NCBI GenBank assembly: GCA_021296215.1
Contig: JAGWBA010000014.1
Location: forward strand, 1-57,144
DNA from: Flavobacteriales bacterium
GTDB lineage: Bacteria > Bacteroidota > Bacteroidia > Flavobacteriales > ECT2AJA-044
DNA length: 57,144 nucleotides
Reading direction: 5' to 3'
In this document: piece by piece, positions 12,369 to 20,707 of the stretch
Numbering within the stretch: the stretch's first letter is position 1
How the letters are laid out: each line of letters starts with the position of its first letter
The notes under the pieces: model-generated
What the model was told of the DNA's origin: nothing
The model's input: only the letters and a program-made list of their open reading frames with translations
Database searches by the model: none
Translations under genes and position numbers: made by a program

Positions 12369-12416
12369 GGCAATTCTTAACAGTCACTTAATGTATCGCC
12401 CTGGCGGGCGGATGTA

Positions 12417-12424
12417 TATCTTTG
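12417..12424 (+). promoter_or_regulatory. murB promoter -7 box (TATCTTTG)
   Basis: TATCTTTG lies 5 bases before the ATG at 12430, so the expected transcription start nearly coincides with the start codon and the murB mRNA is probably leaderless or almost so. Confidence 0.6.
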
Positions 12425-12429
12425 TCGCC

Positions 12430-13467
12430 ATGAATTGGACACTCAAGGCCGACTTACAAGCGCTCAATACCTTTGGCCTGCGAGCTCAGGCTAAACGTCT
12501 CGGGCGTTTCACCTCTAGGCAGGAACTCCGGCGAGCGCTCGAACAAATCGATTTGCTCAACGAACCGTTGATGATCCTGGGCGGTGGAAGCAATATGCTG
12601 CTGACCACTGATTTCGAGGGTACCCTTTTGCGAAATGAGATCAAGGGAGTAGAGATCGTCGATGAGGACGATGATTCTGCCTTGGTGCAAGTCGGGGGAG
12701 GTGAGGTTTGGCATCAGTTCGTGCTGTGGACCATAGAACGCGGGCTGGGCGGATTAGAAAATCTGAGTCTGATCCCGGGCTCGGTCGGAGCAGCTCCTAT
12801 TCAAAACATCGGCGCATATGGAGTCGAAGTTAAAAGTACTTTCGTGAGCTGTGATGCCCTCGAAATAGCTACTGGCGACCTGCGCACCTTTACTCCCCAA
12901 GAGTGTGCCTTCGACTATCGCTGGAGTGTTTTCAAAGGACCCTTAAAAGGTAAATACGTCATCACATCAGTGACCTTTAAGCTGAGCAAGAATCCTGTTG
13001 TTAATACGCAGTACGGAGCGATTCAGGAGCAACTCAAGGCCATGGGCGTTGAGGGAACACCGACCATCAAAGAAGTCAGCGACGCGGTGATCGCTATACG
13101 TCAGAGCAAATTGCCCGATCCCAAGGAGATAGGGAATAGTGGGAGTTTCTTCAAGAACCCGATAGTGAGCGAGTCCAAATACCGATCCTTAAAGGCCGAT
13201 TTCCCCGAGCTGGTTGCGTATCCTGCCGCAGGCAGTAATTATAAAATAGCGGCGGGTTGGTTGATCGATTTTTTAGGCTGGAAGGGCTATCGTCGGGGCG
13301 ATGCGGGGGTGCATGCTCGCCAAGCGCTCGTACTCGTGAACTACGGAGCAGCCAAAGGCGTTGAAATTGCAGCGTTGGCCCGGGACATCCAAGACGATGT
13401 TCGAGAGAAGTTCGGAGTCGAACTGGAGGCCGAAGTCAACTTCATTGGCCCTCGAGGACCAGTGTAA
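12430..13467 (+). CDS. murB: UDP-N-acetylenolpyruvoylglucosamine reductase
   Basis: FAD enzyme of 345 residues that reduces UDP-GlcNAc-enolpyruvate to UDP-MurNAc with NADPH, the second committed step of peptidoglycan synthesis, in the cytoplasm. Visible motifs are the FAD-binding GGGSNMLL, LSLIPGSVGAAPIQNIGAYGVEV, the catalytic Ser in GNSGSFFKNP, AAGWLID and the C-terminal catalytic Glu region EAEVNFIG. Length and motif order match the E. coli-type (type I) enzyme. I use the ATG at 12430 because the frame's 13 extra upstream codons cover the promoter box. It is divergent from the glycosyltransferases, which fits a shared envelope role but implies no common control. Confidence 0.95.
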   Translation: MNWTLKADLQALNTFGLRAQAKRLGRFTSRQELRRALEQIDLLNEPLMILGGGSNMLLTTDFEGTLLRNEIKGVEIVDEDDDSALVQVGGGEVWHQFVLWTIERGLGGLENLSLIPGSVGAAPIQNIGAYGVEVKSTFVSCDALEIATGDLRTFTPQECAFDYRWSVFKGPLKGKYVITSVTFKLSKNPVVNTQYGAIQEQLKAMGVEGTPTIKEVSDAVIAIRQSKLPDPKEIGNSGSFFKNPIVSESKYRSLKADFPELVAYPAAGSNYKIAAGWLIDFLGWKGYRRGDAGVHARQALVLVNYGAAKGVEIAALARDIQDDVREKFGVELEAEVNFIGPRGPV

Positions 13468-13472
13468 TTTCG

Positions 13473-13480
13473 TATCTTTG
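13473..13480 (+). promoter_or_regulatory. Promoter -7 box (TATCTTTG) of nqrM-like gene
   Basis: TATCTTTG begins 6 bases after the murB stop and ends 23 bases before the ATG at 13504. The small gene therefore has its own promoter despite following murB closely. Confidence 0.6.
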
Positions 13481-13503: not shown

Positions 13504-13713
13504 ATGTTGAAGATCATATTACTTGCCGTTGGGCTTTTGGCCCTTGGAATCGCCGGATTGGCGATCAAGATCTGGGGAAAGAAGGATGGAGAGTTCTCGG
13601 GTACATGCGCGAGTAATTCGCCCTTTTTGAACAAGGAAGGTGAGTCGTGCAGTATTTGTGGTGCTGCTCCCGGTCAGCAGTGCCGCAAGGAAGAGGTTGT
13701 CACTGAGGCATAA
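13504..13713 (+). CDS. Small four-cysteine membrane protein, candidate Na+-NQR maturation factor NqrM
   Basis: 69 residues. An N-terminal membrane helix (residues 1-23, LLAVGLLALGIAGLAIKIW) is followed by a soluble tail with four cysteines, Cys35, Cys49, Cys52 and Cys60, in the arrangement SGTC-x13-CSIC-x7-C. NqrM (DUF539) of Vibrio is a protein of about 70 residues with the same plan, one N-terminal helix then CGG...CxICGG...C, and is needed to mature the iron centre shared by NqrD and NqrE. Here the gene lies 25 bases from apbE and about 1.1 kb from nqrF, tail to tail with that operon, and has its own promoter box. The assignment rests on topology, Cys spacing and neighbourhood; an unrelated small membrane protein remains possible. 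Confidence 0.65.
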   Translation: MLKIILLAVGLLALGIAGLAIKIWGKKDGEFSGTCASNSPFLNKEGESCSICGAAPGQQCRKEEVVTEA

Positions 13714-13738: not shown

Positions 13739-14746
13739 TTATCGGATCAGGTTTTCAAAGCCGGGCGACTGATAAACTTCCCACTTCCCTTTTTCATTAC
13801 TGTAAACGAACATCGCTTCGAGGTCTGTCCGGGTTTCGACCAGTTCGATGGACTTCTTTAGACCCAAGACCATGAAGGCCGTTGCGAAACCGTCGGCTGC
13901 CATAGCTTCATCGGCTACGACGGTTGCACTGAGCAAGTTTTGTTGTACTGTGTATCCCGTAGTCGGGTCAATGGTATGTACATACTTTTGACCCGTGGTT
14001 TCATCGGCCCGAAACTTGCGGTAATTTCCTGAGGTGGCCAATGATTTGCCCTGCAGAGCAACAATGGCCTGAAAAGGATCCTCACCTCGCTCCTTAACGG
14101 GTTTATCGATACCAATTCGCCACACACGCCCTTCGAGATTCACCCCTTTTGCCCGGAGCTCACCTCCTACTTCGACAAGGTAATCGCCTATCCCTTTACT
14201 TTCGAGGAATTCGGCCAACAGGTCAACTGTGTAACCTTGCGCAATAGCATTGAAGTCAAATACGATTCCGACCGGGTCGGTTATAACCTTCCCGTTTTGA
14301 ATGCGCACTTTATCCAGTCCCACGTAATTCATCATACTATCGACCTGGGCGCTATCGAGCCGCGAAGGGCCTTTAGGACCGAAACCATAGGCGTTTACCA
14401 ATGCTCCGACCGTTATATCGAATCGTCCATCCGTGGCCTTATGGATCGCCTTCGAGGCTTCAAAGACTTCGATAAAAAGCTCGTCAACTCGAACCGCGGT
14501 GTCTCCTTCGTTCAGTCGGCTGATGAGTGATGCACCGTACCAAGGGTTCATGCTTTGATCGACCGCTTTGAAAATAGAATCGATCTCGCTCTCGAACGAT
14601 GTTTCCGGATCGCTGACTACTGTAGTAATCTGATAGGTGGTGCCTTGGGCATCGCCTTGGTAGCGTACAAGTTGACCTTCGGGTCGAACGGTACAGGCTA
14701 CGAGCCCCAAGAGGCCGATCAATACAACGTGCAATAGACTTTTCAT
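13739..14746 (-). CDS. apbE: FAD:protein FMN transferase (flavinylates Na+-NQR)
   Basis: 335-residue periplasmic lipoprotein: signal peptide with lipobox LVAC (residues 15-18). It matches ApbE, which attaches FMN covalently to a Thr in NqrB and NqrC using FAD and Mg2+. Motifs include GTTYQITT, ALVNAYGFGPKGP, DFNAIAQGYTVD, VEVGGELRAKG, the TGYTVQQNL segment and the metal-binding DEAMAADGFATAF near the C terminus. It is the gene after nqrF on the same strand. A GC-rich terminator stands in the 50-base gap between them, so apbE is probably expressed by read-through or a weak promoter of its own. The target motifs in NqrB and NqrC are present in this window. Confidence 0.95.
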   Translation of the reverse strand: MKSLLHVVLIGLLGLVACTVRPEGQLVRYQGDAQGTTYQITTVVSDPETSFESEIDSIFKAVDQSMNPWYGASLISRLNEGDTAVRVDELFIEVFEASKAIHKATDGRFDITVGALVNAYGFGPKGPSRLDSAQVDSMMNYVGLDKVRIQNGKVITDPVGIVFDFNAIAQGYTVDLLAEFLESKGIGDYLVEVGGELRAKGVNLEGRVWRIGIDKPVKERGEDPFQAIVALQGKSLATSGNYRKFRADETTGQKYVHTIDPTTGYTVQQNLLSATVVADEAMAADGFATAFMVLGLKKSIELVETRTDLEAMFVYSNEKGKWEVYQSPGFENLIR

Positions 14747-14796: not shown

Positions 14797-16053
14797 TTAG
14801 CCCCCGAAGTCGTCGAAGGCGATGTTCTCATCCGGCACACCCAGATCGTCGAGCATCTTGAAGACCGCCGCGTTCATCATCGGTGGTCCACAGAGATAAA
14901 ACTCAATCTCTTCTGGTTCCGGGTGGTGTTTCAAGTAGTTTTCGAGTACCACGTTGTGAATGAAGCCTGTGTAACCGTCCCAATTGTCTTCGGGCATTGG
15001 CTCACTCAATGCGATGTGGTAGCTAAAGTTGTCGAATTCCTTCTCGATCTGACGGAAGTCTTCCGTATAGAAGAGTTCGCGTTTAGAACGACCACCGTAC
15101 CAGTACGACACCTTGCGATTACGGGTCTTTTCGGTGTGGAACAAATGGAAGATGTGCGAACGCAATGGAGCCATTCCGGCACCACCTCCGATGTACAACA
15201 TCTCTTTCTTAGTGTCCTTGATGTGGAATTCACCGTAAGGACCAGAAATGGTCACCTTATCACCCGGATTTCGAGAGAATACGTACGAAGAACAAATTCC
15301 GGGATTTACATCCATCCACTTATTCTTGGCGCGATCCCAAGGCGGAGTGGCGATACGGATATTCAACATCACGATGTTTCCCTCAGCTGGGTGATTCGCC
15401 ATGGAGTAAGCGCGGAAGATCTCCTCGTCGTTCTTCATCATGAGATCCCAGATACCGAATTTATCGTAGTCAGACTTATACTCTTCCCCGATATTGTAGA
15501 GGTCTTTACTGAAGTCTACTTCGATAGGCGGCACGTCTACTTGGATATAACCTCCTGATTGGAAATCCAGTGTTTCCCCCTCGGGCAACTTTACAACGAA
15601 CTCCTTAATGAAGGTGGCTACGTTATCATTTGAAATGACTTCGCATTCCCATTTCTTTATACCGAAGATCTCTTCAGGAACTTTGATCTTCATATCGTTC
15701 TTCACCTTCACCTGGCAGCCCAAGCGCCAGTTCTCCTGAATTTCTTTACGAGTGAAGTACGGCTTTTCGGTAGGGAGGATTTCTCCCCCTCCTTCGAGCA
15801 CCTGGCATTTGCACATAGCACAGGTACCACCACCTCCACACGCCGACGGCAAAAAGATCTTGTTGTTACCCAATGTGCTGAGCAAAGTACTTCCCGACTC
15901 TACTTCAACTTCTTTTTCTCCGTTGATACTCAACTTTACCGGTCCGGAAGGAGCCAGTTTTGCTTTGGCCGTCAAAAGCACCGACACCAACAACATGATG
16001 ATGATGGCGAAAGCGACAACGGTCGATACTATGGTGAGTGTACTTAAAAGCAT
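14797..16053 (-). CDS. nqrF: Na+-translocating NADH:quinone reductase subunit F
   Basis: 418 residues. NADH-oxidising input subunit of the sodium pump. An N-terminal membrane helix (about 4-27) anchors a plant-type [2Fe-2S] domain with ligands in [11 protein letters not shown] plus the Cys in WRLGCQVKV. Next come an FAD domain (RAYSMANHP) and an NADH domain ([14 protein letters not shown], and the C-terminal [10 protein letters not shown]). The chain ends in DFGG, typical of the family. It passes electrons from NADH through FAD and the 2Fe-2S centre to the NqrD/E iron and on to NqrC, B and ubiquinone or menaquinone. It is the last gene of nqrABCDEF, 20 bases after nqrE. Confidence 0.97.
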
Positions 16054-16073: not shown

Positions 16074-16691
16074 TTACAATTCGATTCCCATAAAACTCAT
16101 GAAGGCAATACCCATCAATCCAGTGATGATGAAGGTAATACCCAATCCGCGAAGAGGTGCAGGCACATTGCTGTAGCGAATCTTTTCTCGGATAGCAGCA
16201 ATGGCCACGATGGCCAAGAACCAGCCCACTCCAGAGCCCAAGCCAAAAGCAGTTGCCTCGATGATGGTGGGATAATCACGCTCTTGCATAAATAGTGCTC
16301 CCCCGAGGATAGAACAGTTTACGGCGATAAGTGGCAAAAAGATCCCCAATGCACCGTATAGTTCAGGAGCGAACTTTTCAACGACCATCTCCACCAGCTG
16401 AACCATAGAGGCGATTACGGCGATGAACATGATGAAGGAGAGGAAGCTCAAGTCAACGGTTGCAAACTCTGGTCCGAGCCATTTTAAGGCTCCTTCTTTC
16501 AAAATATAGTTTTCGAGTAACCAGTTGATCGGAACGGTGATCCCCAAAACGAAGATCACGGCAGCACCCAATCCAACACCGGTTTTTACCGTCTTCGATA
16601 CAGCCAGGTACGAACACATACCCAAGAAGTAGGCGAAGATCATATTGTCTTCAAAGATCGACTTGACGAATATGTTAACGAGTTCTTGCAT
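16074..16691 (-). CDS. nqrE: Na+-translocating NADH:quinone reductase subunit E
   Basis: 205-residue membrane subunit with six hydrophobic helices. NqrE and NqrD are inverted homologues that together hold an iron or [2Fe-2S] centre in the membrane. Here the two candidate ligand cysteines are in [10 protein letters not shown] (about residue 26) and [11 protein letters not shown] (about residue 120), the positions expected for the family. It lies 10 bases after nqrD. The '[12 protein letters not shown]' segment and the C-terminal helix match NqrE rather than RnfA; the presence of all Nqr genes confirms it. Confidence 0.95.
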
Positions 16692-16701
16692 GGTCGTAAT
16701 C

Positions 16702-17415
16702 TTAGTTTTCTTCGATCAGTTGGCGATTGCGGGCGCGCTGCACCCAAATGATGATTCCCACGGTGATCAGAGCCATGGGCGGCAACAACATGAGTCCGTT
16801 GTTTACGTATCCCATGGTATAAAGGCCTGATTCACTACCTGCAGTGGCATTTCCGAAAATATTGATCTCGAACAACTGACCGCTTCCAAATAGTTCGCGG
16901 AAGAAGGCGACTGTGATCAATATCCAGGCATAACCTGCGGCGTTACCTACTCCATCGAGGAATGAGCGCCACGGGTTGTTACCCAGAGCAAAGGCTTCGA
17001 AACGTCCCATGATGATACAGTTGGTAATGATCAACCCAACAAAAACTGATAGCTGTTTGCTTACGTCGTAAACGAAGGCCTTCAATACTTGGTCAACCAA
17101 GATCACCAAGCTGGCCACTACGACCAACTGAACAATGATTCGAATTCGGTTCGGAATCAAGTTCCGAAGCATCGAGATCACCACGTTACCAACGCCCAAA
17201 ACGAAGAATACGGAGAGCGACATTACGATCGCAGGCTCTAGTTTCACCGTTATGGCAAGCGCTGAACAAATTCCCAATACCTGCACGGTGATCGGATTGT
17301 CGTCGTTCAACGGCGTGGTGAGGAGTTTTCTATTTTTCTTGGAGAAGAGGCCTTCCTTTTCGGTCACCTTGGTTTCGGTGGTCTCTTCAGCGACTTCTTT
17401 CACTTCTGTGCTCAT
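16702..17415 (-). CDS. nqrD: Na+-translocating NADH:quinone reductase subunit D
   Basis: 237-residue membrane subunit, homologous to NqrE. The ligand cysteines are visible in [11 protein letters not shown] and [11 protein letters not shown]. Compared with the usual length of about 210 residues it has an extra hydrophilic N-terminal tail of about 25 residues rich in Glu, Lys and Thr ([17 protein letters not shown]) before [14 protein letters not shown], where the family similarity starts. The tail is likely real, since the ATG is only 5 bases from the nqrC stop, but an internal start cannot be excluded. It forms the intramembrane iron centre with NqrE. Confidence 0.94.
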
Positions 17416-17420
17416 AGTCG

Positions 17421-18152
17421 TTATTCTTGTGCGTTCATCGTCATTTGCCCACCTTCAATCTTATCGAAGTAAGGCAAGTAAAAAGAGATACAGTCTTCGA
17501 GCATGTTGTCCACACCATTACTGGTGATGGTTCCGCCCGAAATTCCATCAACTTCGTATTGTCCAGAGGCGCCGCCTTTAACGACCGCTACACTCACGAA
17601 TTCTCCGTTATCGAAGATCTTTTTTCCAACGAATTGATCTTGGAAAAAGCCTTTGTTGATCTCGGCACCGAGACCCGGAGTTTCTGTTTTGTGGTCGAAG
17701 CTAGCACCGTAAATGGTGTTGAGATCATCTTCCAAAGAGATATAGCCCCAGATAGGACCCCACAAACCTTTACCTCGCAAAGGAACGACGTAGAAGGTCT
17801 TTCCATCTTTCTCGGCGATGTACAACGGCCAAGTTTGCTCTTCGCGAGGCAGTTTAACTTGCTTAGCGAGATTGATCTTAAAGGCCTCACCTTCCACTTC
17901 CTCTCCACTCACGTTCAACACGATCTGGCGCTTTACGAACTCGGGGAAGATCTCCGCAGCCTTCTCGCGAGAAGTCTCACCTTTATCGAAACCGATGGTG
18001 GAGAGAATATCTTGTTTCTTTTCATTCTCAATGTTCTTATCCTGCATGGGCTTCAAGCTGATCGCCGCTGCGGAGAGAATGACTCCTACGACCACCACCA
18101 TCGCAGTTGCGAAGATGAAGGTGTAACTATTCTTATTAACGTCTACTGCCAT
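17421..18152 (-). CDS. nqrC: Na+-translocating NADH:quinone reductase subunit C
   Basis: 243 residues: one N-terminal membrane helix (about 10-32, TFIFATAMVVVVGVILSAAAI) and a periplasmic FMN-binding domain. The covalent FMN site is the Thr in DGISGGTITSNGV, the S-G-x-T-x-T/S motif that ApbE modifies. GLWGPIWGYISLEDD and ETPGLGAEI are standard NqrC/RnfG segments. It takes electrons from the NqrD/E iron and gives them to the FMN of NqrB. It lies 4 bases after nqrB, so the two are probably translationally linked. Confidence 0.96.
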   Translation of the reverse strand: MAVDVNKNSYTFIFATAMVVVVGVILSAAAISLKPMQDKNIENEKKQDILSTIGFDKGETSREKAAEIFPEFVKRQIVLNVSGEEVEGEAFKINLAKQVKLPREEQTWPLYIAEKDGKTFYVVPLRGKGLWGPIWGYISLEDDLNTIYGASFDHKTETPGLGAEINKGFFQDQFVGKKIFDNGEFVSVAVVKGGASGQYEVDGISGGTITSNGVDNMLEDCISFYLPYFDKIEGGQMTMNAQE

Positions 18153-18156
18153 GGTC

Positions 18157-19341
18157 TTAAGCTTTTGCAGTGTTCATTCGTTTCATGCGCTTTTTAACAT
18201 TGGCTTGAACCACGTAGTGGTCGATGAGCGGCGCAAAGACGTTCATCAATAAAATGGCCAACATAATTCCTTCGGGATAAGCAGGGTTGAATACGCGAAT
18301 CATGATTGCGAAGAATCCTACCAAGAATCCGTAGATCCACTTTCCTTTGGTGGTTTGTGCAGCAGAAACCGGATCAGTGGCCATAAAAACCAATCCGAAT
18401 GCGAAACCACCGATCACCAAGTGCTCGTACCACGGTGTGGCCATGAGCAAGTTCACCGAGAACGCATTGAAGATGAGTCCCATAAGAGATGCTCCCAACA
18501 ATCCGCTCAACATGATTCTCCAGCTTCCGATTCCAGTCCAAAGCAAGAATGCCGCACCGAGTATAATGGCCAAGGTGCTCGTTTCACCAACTGAACCCGG
18601 GATAAGTCCAAGAAACGCCTCCATTGGGGTCCAGCTGTCATAGCCAGTCCCGGCGGCGGCCTGAGACAAAACTTCCTTTGCGGCCGCGAGGCCGCCCAAA
18701 ATAGTCTCACCCGAAATCGCATCCACAGTACCGGCATCGGCCACCCATACCGCGTTTCCGGACATGTACGTCGGGTAGGCGAAAAACAGAAATGCACGCG
18801 CGGTCAGTGCGGGGTTCAAGATGTTCATACCGGTTCCACCGAAAACCTCTTTACCGATGATCACGGCAAATACGACGGCGACGGCCAACATCCACAAGGG
18901 CAAGTCAACCGGCATGATCAAGGGAATCAACATTCCCGTTACGAGGTACCCTTCATTGACCTGGTGGCCGCGAATAATGGCGAACAAGAACTCGATTCCA
19001 AGACCTACTCCATAGGAGATTACGATCATGGGGAGTACTTTCCACAGACCGAACAAGAATGCACTCATCAAAGTGAATTCTTCACCGAGTTGAGAGTAAT
19101 GCTGGAATCCAATGTTGTACATTCCGAACAACAACGACGGTACGAGCGCTATGATCACGAAGAACATCGTTCTCTTCAGATCGATTCCGTCGCGAATGTG
19201 AGCACCGCTGTGGGTCGTTTCGCCCGGAACAAAAACGAACGTTTCGAATGCATCGAGTGCCGGGTGGAACTTCTCGAATTTTCCGCCCTTCTCGAAGTTG
19301 GGCTTTATACCGTCAAAGAAATTGCGCAATAGCTTCTTCAT
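18157..19341 (-). CDS. nqrB: Na+-translocating NADH:quinone reductase subunit B
   Basis: 394 residues, with about ten membrane helices; the sodium channel subunit. Covalent FMN is expected on the Thr in PGSVGETSTLA, the S-G-x-T-like motif recognised by ApbE, and riboflavin also binds here. HIRDGIDLKRTM and GGTGMNILNPALTARAF are diagnostic of NqrB. I start at the ATG of 19341 (MKKLLRNFFDGIKPNFEKGG), 13 bases after nqrA; the frame extends 35 codons upstream into nqrA, which lacks similarity and would overlap it. The conserved GHQVNEGYLVTG segment is intact. Confidence 0.95.
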   Translation of the reverse strand: MKKLLRNFFDGIKPNFEKGGKFEKFHPALDAFETFVFVPGETTHSGAHIRDGIDLKRTMFFVIIALVPSLLFGMYNIGFQHYSQLGEEFTLMSAFLFGLWKVLPMIVISYGVGLGIEFLFAIIRGHQVNEGYLVTGMLIPLIMPVDLPLWMLAVAVVFAVIIGKEVFGGTGMNILNPALTARAFLFFAYPTYMSGNAVWVADAGTVDAISGETILGGLAAAKEVLSQAAAGTGYDSWTPMEAFLGLIPGSVGETSTLAIILGAAFLLWTGIGSWRIMLSGLLGASLMGLIFNAFSVNLLMATPWYEHLVIGGFAFGLVFMATDPVSAAQTTKGKWIYGFLVGFFAIMIRVFNPAYPEGIMLAILLMNVFAPLIDHYVVQANVKKRMKRMNTAKA

Positions 19342-19354
19342 CGTCCTTATTTCT

Positions 19355-20707
19355 TTATGACATTTCGTGTTTGATGGTGTCCAAACCTTCGCGAATGGTC
19401 TTCTGTAGATCCATTTTCGAAGTACAAACCACTTCGCAGAGCGCAAAGTCTTCTGGACTCACTTCGTAAATACCCAACTGCTCCATCGCTTCTACATCGC
19501 CGACCATGATCGACTTGAGAAGCTGCTGCGGATAAATATCCATCGGTAATACTCTTTCGTACTCCCCGGTTACCACGAATGCGCGTTTTTCACCGTGCAT
19601 GTTGGTATCGAGCGCATACTTCTTACCCGGCATCATCCACGAGGGGAAGGCACGAGAAATACTGAATTTATCGAATCCAGGGGCGATCCAACCAAACAAT
19701 TCGGGTTCATCCCCTTCCGGTATAGCAGTGACTACATGATCGTAAAAACCGAGATATCCATCTGCACCCACCTTGGAACCGGTCAGGACATTACCCGAGA
19801 TCACGCGAATATTTCCTTCTTTCAGATTTCCTTCGAGCATCCTAGACAACTGTACTCCCGTTACAACCTTGAAGTAACGCGCTTGGTTCACCTCGGATCC
19901 GGCGACGGCGATCGTGCGAGATGCATCGTATTTTCCTTCCGCGAAGAATCGTCCGATTGTAGCGACATCCTGAGGATTCACATACCATACGACCTCACCT
20001 TTATTGATAGGGTCTATGTGGTGGATCTGGATTCCGACGTTTCCTGCCGGGTGAGGACCCGTTACATTGTGTCGCTCAACGCCTTTAGCTTCAGTAAACA
20101 CTTTGGCAGGAGCACTTTTACCGCGAACCGAAAGGTGAATTTTCCCTTCGGTCAAACAGCTCAAAGCATCGATACCGGCCTGAAAATCGGTTTCGCGACC
20201 TTCGAGCATGAAGTCGTAATCGGGAGCCAATGGGGCGCTATCGAATGCCGAAATAAAAATCGCTTTGGGAGCATCATCCGGATTTGCGGTTACGTCGTAG
20301 GGACGCTGGCGCAACATGGGCCACAATCCTGCATCGAGCATCAACCCGGTCACCTTCTCTTTGCTGAGATCGGCCTGAGCTCCGGTTTCGAACTGCTTAT
20401 AGCGAACTTCTTTATCGGCCAAAATCTTGACCTCTAAAATCTTTCGCTTATTACCGCGTTTGATTTCTGCGATCTCGCCACTCACGGGAGCGGTAAAACG
20501 CACGCGTTCCTCGTCTTTACTGTAGAATAGTTGATCTCCGGCAAGCACCTCATCGCCCTCAGCTACGAGGAGTTTCGGAACGACACCATGAAAATCAGTG
20601 GGCTTGATCACGTAGGTTTCTGAAGGAGACACATCGCCGTACACTTTGTCGGCTGCTCCAACGAGCTTGATGTCGACCCCACGCTTAATCTTAATGTCTT
20701 TAGACAT
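19355..20707 (-). CDS. nqrA: Na+-translocating NADH:quinone reductase subunit A
   Basis: 450 residues, cytoplasmic quinone-associated subunit and first gene of the nqrABCDEF operon. It starts MSKDIKIKRGVDIKLVG, the usual NqrA N terminus, followed by a biotinyl-lipoyl-like beta fold (FHGVVPKLLVAEGDEVLAGD) and an SLBB-like region. HVTGPHPAGNVGIQIHHIDP is a strong family signature. No signal peptide is seen, as expected. All following genes are on the same strand with gaps of 4-20 bases, so the six subunits are almost certainly one transcript, driven by the TAATTTTG box at 20743. Confidence 0.96.
   Translation of the reverse strand: MSKDIKIKRGVDIKLVGAADKVYGDVSPSETYVIKPTDFHGVVPKLLVAEGDEVLAGDQLFYSKDEERVRFTAPVSGEIAEIKRGNKRKILEVKILADKEVRYKQFETGAQADLSKEKVTGLMLDAGLWPMLRQRPYDVTANPDDAPKAIFISAFDSAPLAPDYDFMLEGRETDFQAGIDALSCLTEGKIHLSVRGKSAPAKVFTEAKGVERHNVTGPHPAGNVGIQIHHIDPINKGEVVWYVNPQDVATIGRFFAEGKYDASRTIAVAGSEVNQARYFKVVTGVQLSRMLEGNLKEGNIRVISGNVLTGSKVGADGYLGFYDHVVTAIPEGDEPELFGWIAPGFDKFSISRAFPSWMMPGKKYALDTNMHGEKRAFVVTGEYERVLPMDIYPQQLLKSIMVGDVEAMEQLGIYEVSPEDFALCEVVCTSKMDLQKTIREGLDTIKHEMS

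Follow-up and report, generated by a model that had tools for sequence, protein, structure and literature searches.

A four-cysteine, single-helix protein beside the nqr-apbE cluster as a candidate counterpart of NqrM in Bacteroidota

The locus and its genes

The window, a stretch of 57,144 nucleotides from a Flavobacteriales bacterium, carries the genes nqrA to nqrF and apbE on the minus strand and, converging with apbE, a small gene on the plus strand whose product is here called form A. The open reading frame at 13504-13713 has an ATG start and codes for 69 residues (MLKIILLAVGLLALGIAGLAIKIWGKKDGEFSGTCASNSPFLNKEGESCSICGAAPGQQCRKEEVVTEA), among them Cys35, Cys49, Cys52 and Cys60, the middle pair being arranged as CSIC. 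It ends at 13713 and apbE ends at 13739 on the opposite strand, leaving a gap of 25 nt between the two tail-to-tail genes. Length, strand, cysteines and spacing are as the initial annotation had described them. The features of the region are the following.

12391..13467, plus strand: murB-like gene upstream of form A, named from its sequence
13473..13480, plus strand: TATCTTTG, Bacteroidota-type -7 element (TAnnTTTG), 31 nt before the form A ATG
13504..13713, plus strand: form A, four-cysteine single-TM protein of 69 aa, candidate NqrM counterpart (open reading frame and survey)
13507..13578, plus strand: N-terminal TM helix, residues 2-25, then KK (predicted model)
13606..13608, plus strand: Cys35 of GTCAS, at the position equivalent to NqrM Cys33 (alignment)
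13648..13659, plus strand: Cys49-Ser-Ile-Cys52, CxxC (sequence)
13681..13683, plus strand: Cys60 (sequence)
13739..14746, minus strand: apbE, FAD:protein FMN transferase lipoprotein, convergent neighbour (PF02424, 1.2e-77)
14797..16053, minus strand: nqrF (tblastn query, matches nqr operons)
16074..16691, minus strand: nqrE; membrane iron-centre cysteines Cys26 and Cys126 (sequence)
16702..17415, minus strand: nqrD; membrane iron-centre cysteines Cys50 and Cys133 (sequence)
17421..18152, minus strand: nqrC (ORF list, tblastn)
18157..19341, minus strand: nqrB (the listed ORF reaches 19446 from an upstream TTG)
19355..20707, minus strand: nqrA (TIGR01936, 493.6 bits)

All four iron-site cysteines of NqrD and NqrE are intact in the window. 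The first one in NqrD is residue 50, so this ORF has an N-terminal stretch in comparison with the Vibrio numbering, in which the residue presumably lies at about position 29.

In the predicted model of form A, residues 2-25 form a helix (pLDDT 93-95 over residues 1-20) and the cysteine tail is of low confidence (pLDDT 51-74; pTM 0.41). The KK that follows the helix suggests a cytoplasmic tail. A Foldseek search of the PDB with this model gave no match, and a search of PDB chains revealed none related to the window protein.

Conservation of form A

A search of 60 relative genomes found form A in 38 of them, with invariant G-T-C-A-S, P, G-E, C..C-G and C; therefore, the gene is not a chance reading frame. 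The invariant positions of this first alignment include G33, T34, C35, A36, S37, P40, G46, E47, C49, C52, G53 and C60, and F31, G33, C35, C49, C52 and G53 are still conserved in a broader one. The pattern of the family is one TM helix followed by GTCAS..P..GE.C..CG...C. No model in Pfam or NCBIfam names the window protein, and none in Pfam names any of 23 members. At least 589 relatives were detected in a scan of named genomes; the record titles of the best 80 belong to Flavobacteriales, other Bacteroidetes and Balneolaceae. Matches to zinc ribbons (Phage_zn_bind_8, IFT122) were below cutoff and confined to the cysteine part, and this identity was rejected.

The gene had also been credited with a promoter of its own, which is borne out by the element upstream of the ATG and by its recurrence: of 88 loci (a few of them loci of form B, described below), 74 have TAnnTTTG in the 120 nt that precede the gene, versus 10 of 88 reverse-complement controls.

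With respect to its genomic position, form A lies beside or after the apbE of the nqr cluster in part of the family and is unlinked in many Flavobacteriaceae. Form A and apbE converge in 22 loci, and in two lineages (L168, L228) form A shares the strand of apbE and follows it at a distance of 55-56 bp. In most Flavobacteriaceae the gene and nqr are apart; there it comes after murB and has a lipA-like gene close by. A murB-like gene lies at most 3 kb upstream of form A in 50 loci besides the window; to our knowledge, murB is nearly universal. In L140, L149, L163 and other Flavobacteriaceae, form A is part of a conserved block with murB, a sigma factor, an anti-sigma-like gene and a lipA-like gene.

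Co-occurrence with NQR

The gene nqrA was called present above the curated cut-off of TIGR01936. On this basis 39 of the 60 relatives, the order sample, possess nqrA and 21 do not; form A is present in 37/39 of the former versus 1/21 of the latter (Fisher 1e-12, a value that ignores relatedness). Three genomes depart from the pattern: G034 and two that are incomplete (68% and 74% complete), the latter of these two being the single carrier without nqrA.

In a sample of the whole phylum, nqrA is present in 67 of 395 Bacteroidota genomes and absent from 328. The form A profile matches 55 of the 395, one match (G441) being a decayed copy, and intact form A or its offshoot R (see below) is found in 54 of the 67 genomes with nqrA versus none of the 328 without it. 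Thus, the initial expectation that the gene would accompany nqr across the phylum and be missing from NQR-free genomes was confirmed. Twenty-four genomes that only have sub-cutoff nqrA matches, probably RnfC, contain no intact copy, indicating that form A goes with NQR and not with RNF. Genus g3 contains genomes with and without nqr side by side, and form A follows nqr among them. Since form A tracks nqr even in most Flavobacteriaceae, where the two are far apart, linkage alone is an insufficient explanation. As a control, FixS showed no association with nqr (15/39 relatives with nqr versus 16/21 without).

Among the 13 genomes with nqrA that lack form A and R, 12 belong to a single family, f31, which appears to be Bacteroidaceae-like. 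In G317 (L095), which is the thirteenth, and in G034 (L101), which belongs to the order sample, the nqrA-F genes have no apbE in their vicinity, and neither form A, form B or R nor a PF04400 gene was found. Contamination or a further factor may be the cause.

The R offshoot and a decayed copy

Genomes of families f25 and f26 that possess NQR carry the pattern GRFPNxHVSGN...GC, called R, encoded between pepD-like and ompH-like genes. The cysteine of GTCAS is replaced by His, only one cysteine is conserved, and R consequently departs from the four-cysteine, G[ST]C plan of form A; it seems, from the sequences, to have lost the key cysteine. That R could be an unrelated gene was ruled out by profile comparison, which groups it with form A (hhalign 97.4%; 0/60 shuffles as high). 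In the one R genome inspected, the NqrD and NqrE cysteines are kept although R has no equivalent of Cys35. The G441 genome, which has no nqrA, holds its decayed copy between the same pepD-like and ompH-like neighbours as the intact R copies; because of the decay, its match (E 8e-5) was not accepted as a carrier. The R offshoot and this decayed copy are represented by loci L088-L091 and L117.

A different protein, form B, in family f31

Form A is not the only small cysteine protein of its kind in Bacteroidota, as family f31 shows. In the five nqr regions of this family that were inspected, the gene that comes after nqrA-F and apbE encodes another one-TM protein, form B, which has a CCGGGxC motif:

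L092 3149-3361, minus strand: form B, one-TM CCGGG cysteine protein after apbE in an f31 nqr operon
L093 3534-3740, minus strand: form B, same setting
L094 14728-14940, plus strand: form B, same setting
L096 14804-15058, plus strand: form B, same setting
L097 14238-14486, plus strand: form B, same setting

Form B therefore occupies the slot of Vibrio nqrM, right after apbE. A survey with a form B profile covered 66 of the 395 genomes. The profile matched 12/12 f31 genomes with NQR, always on the nqrA strand and 5 to 8 kb downstream, and had no match in the 5/5 NQR-free f31 genomes tested; among the other genomes of the 66 it gave nothing better than E 0.03.

Relation of form A and form B to NqrM

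A passage of PMC12174285 describes NqrM as a small membrane protein that is seemingly required for insertion of the iron-sulphur centre of NQR, and another, in PMC6209661, assigns it the predicted function of delivering Fe to NqrD and NqrE. Form A had initially been proposed to be the Bacteroidota form of NqrM (DUF539, PF04400). The part of this proposal that stands is the tracking of NQR; membership in DUF539 is a possibility with a remote profile similarity behind it, which comes from the helix and the G[ST]C position. With the membership threshold of PF04400 set above 22 bits, the profile search called for by the initial annotation yielded no match to the window protein even at E<=10, to any of 23 form A members or to any of the 395 Bacteroidota genomes, so a direct match was rejected. 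The same search found NqrM in four proteobacterial records. No PF04400 gene was found elsewhere in the genome of the window by this search, which had been checked on known carriers.

Form A shares the plan of NqrM: a single TM helix at the N-terminus, then four conserved cysteines, the first of them in G[ST]C. A true NqrM set, taken from annotated or tblastn-located records of a plasmid collection, was compared with form A by hhalign, which gave 95.8% with Cys35 aligned on Cys33. The latter residue is reportedly essential in Vibrio NqrM. Shuffles of the NqrM tail kept a median of 93% against form A (3/60 as high as the real one), and the tail-only comparison gave 0.2%; these two results weaken the 95.8% as a proof of homology. 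When helix and tail were shuffled separately, no shuffle was as high as the form A-NqrM value. In comparisons with FixS, form A reached 79% and NqrM 6.5%.

An HMM built from 11 real NqrM proteins gave medians of 6.6 bits for form A, 10.6 for form B and -0.8 for 163 further small ORFs with one TM helix from the same loci, many of them perhaps spurious. The best of these 163 scored 5.1 bits and the window protein itself 4.9, while a form A protein (L072) reached 17.7 bits (E 5e-5, Z 400) and a form B protein (L092) 20.8. Among all the non-NqrM ORFs that were ranked, the 46 best are form A or B without exception. These scores are suggestive of a distant homology, short of proof, and the remote signal stems from the TM helix and the position of G[ST]C, not from the cysteine tail.

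Form A might thus be a true, very diverged DUF539/NqrM homologue, so that all three proteins, NqrM and forms A and B, would make up a single family, a reading of its descent that is compatible with an assembly role and towards which we lean slightly. The bit scores of L072 and L092, the ranking of the ORFs, the nearly equal distance of G[ST]C from the N-terminus and the CxxC common to form A and alphaproteobacterial NqrM argue for it, but the failure of the tails to align by themselves, the low score of the window protein, the lack of PF04400 matches in 395 genomes and the 79% of FixS speak against it.

Proposed role

Our main reading, to which we assign a probability of roughly 0.77, is that form A is an NQR-specific assembly factor, the counterpart of NqrM function in this part of the Bacteroidota. 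On this view, form A would be held in the membrane by its N-terminal helix and its cysteine tail would face the cytoplasm. Cys35, which lies shortly beyond the helix, would bind iron or an iron-sulphur precursor together with Cys49, Cys52 and Cys60, and form A would then hand it to the four NqrD/NqrE cysteines within the membrane; ApbE would attach FMN to NqrB and NqrC. The assembly role is favoured because the association with nqr, the TM and cysteine plan and the gene slot fit NqrM. It is also favoured by form B, which fills the post-apbE slot in f31 genomes with NQR and is absent from those without it, by the intact iron-site cysteines of NqrD and NqrE in a genome where no PF04400 gene was found, by the decay of the copy in G441 and by the NqrM HMM, which on average ranks forms A and B above the other small ORFs. 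It is weakened by the lack of PF04400 matches, by the shuffled and tail-only profile comparisons, by the low confidence of the tail in the predicted model, by the loss of the Cys35 equivalent in R and by G317 and G034, which have nqr but none of forms A, B or R. As judged from sequence comparisons, an NqrM-like role appears well supported.

Co-occurrence and gene neighbourhood would fit equally well if form A were a structural or regulatory subunit retained in the mature NQR of Bacteroidota, and the PDB search yielded no related structure to exclude a subunit. This is unlikely, since core subunits less commonly have a promoter of their own or lie apart from the operon as often as form A does. 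Moreover, form A matches NqrM, a maturation factor, in size, in TM and cysteine plan and in the post-apbE slot, and form B substitutes for form A with a quite different tail. It is very improbable that form A works in some other context (that of murB or lipA, or general iron or redox functions) and owes its tie with nqr to lifestyle or neighbourhood, because, in spite of the conservation of murB and lipA-like genes next to it in Flavobacteriaceae and the resemblance of the CxxC part to Pfam zinc ribbons, 54/54 intact carriers have nqrA, none of the 328 genomes without nqrA is a carrier, and FixS, also a small TM maturation gene, has no such association.

Beyond the assembly role of form A itself, it is rather probable that iron-centre assembly in NqrD/NqrE depends on lineage-specific small TM proteins (NqrM in Proteobacteria, form A and the Cys-poor R in most Bacteroidota, form B in Bacteroidaceae-like genomes), which could be either one extremely diverged family or unrelated cysteine proteins that were repeatedly recruited to the same slot.

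Many marine and gut Bacteroidota use NQR as a main pump for Na+, and NqrM was defined from Proteobacteria. The literature searched, consisting of titles, abstracts and a few passages, contained no Bacteroidota counterpart of NqrM. Naming forms A and B would close this gap and give annotators families for genes that lack a model. The two forms also provide two very different natural variants for testing iron delivery to NQR, R being a third one.

Comparison with known systems

NqrM and form A are both proteins of about 70-80 aa with an N-terminal TM helix, shortly followed by G[ST]C, and four cysteines; their genes occur with nqr/apbE and are restricted to NQR genomes. In the case of nqrM, this restriction to NQR bacteria is said to have been noted in its original description. 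However, form A has GTCAS where NqrM has GSCGG, and the residues between its cysteines number 13-2-7, versus 11-1-3 in the NqrM of gamma- and betaproteobacteria. Alphaproteobacterial NqrM resembles form A in the CxxC but has a long last gap. A form A protein of one genome (L081, G343) has GTCAG and a CxC-x4-C tail, a spacing nearer to that of gammaproteobacterial NqrM. Unlike NqrM, form A is usually convergent with apbE or unlinked to it.

Form B resembles form A in its single TM helix and cysteine tail, and occurs only with NQR in the genomes tested, but its tail, GCCGGGxC, is unlike that of form A (hhalign 24%). It also weakly resembles the FeoB-associated Cys-rich membrane protein PF12669 (E 0.06). 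The latter, like form A, combines a single TM helix and a cysteine tail with an iron context; it gave no match for the window protein and weak sub-cutoff matches for some form A relatives, whose gene context is nqr/apbE or murB, unlike that of PF12669. FixS/CcoS (PF03597), which acts in cbb3 oxidase maturation, is also a small single-TM maturation protein with some helix similarity to form A (E 0.19), the window protein scoring 11.9 bits versus a threshold of 23.1; a genuine FixS is encoded at G000:C39. Unlike form A, FixS/CcoS has no conserved cysteine tail and does not track nqr.
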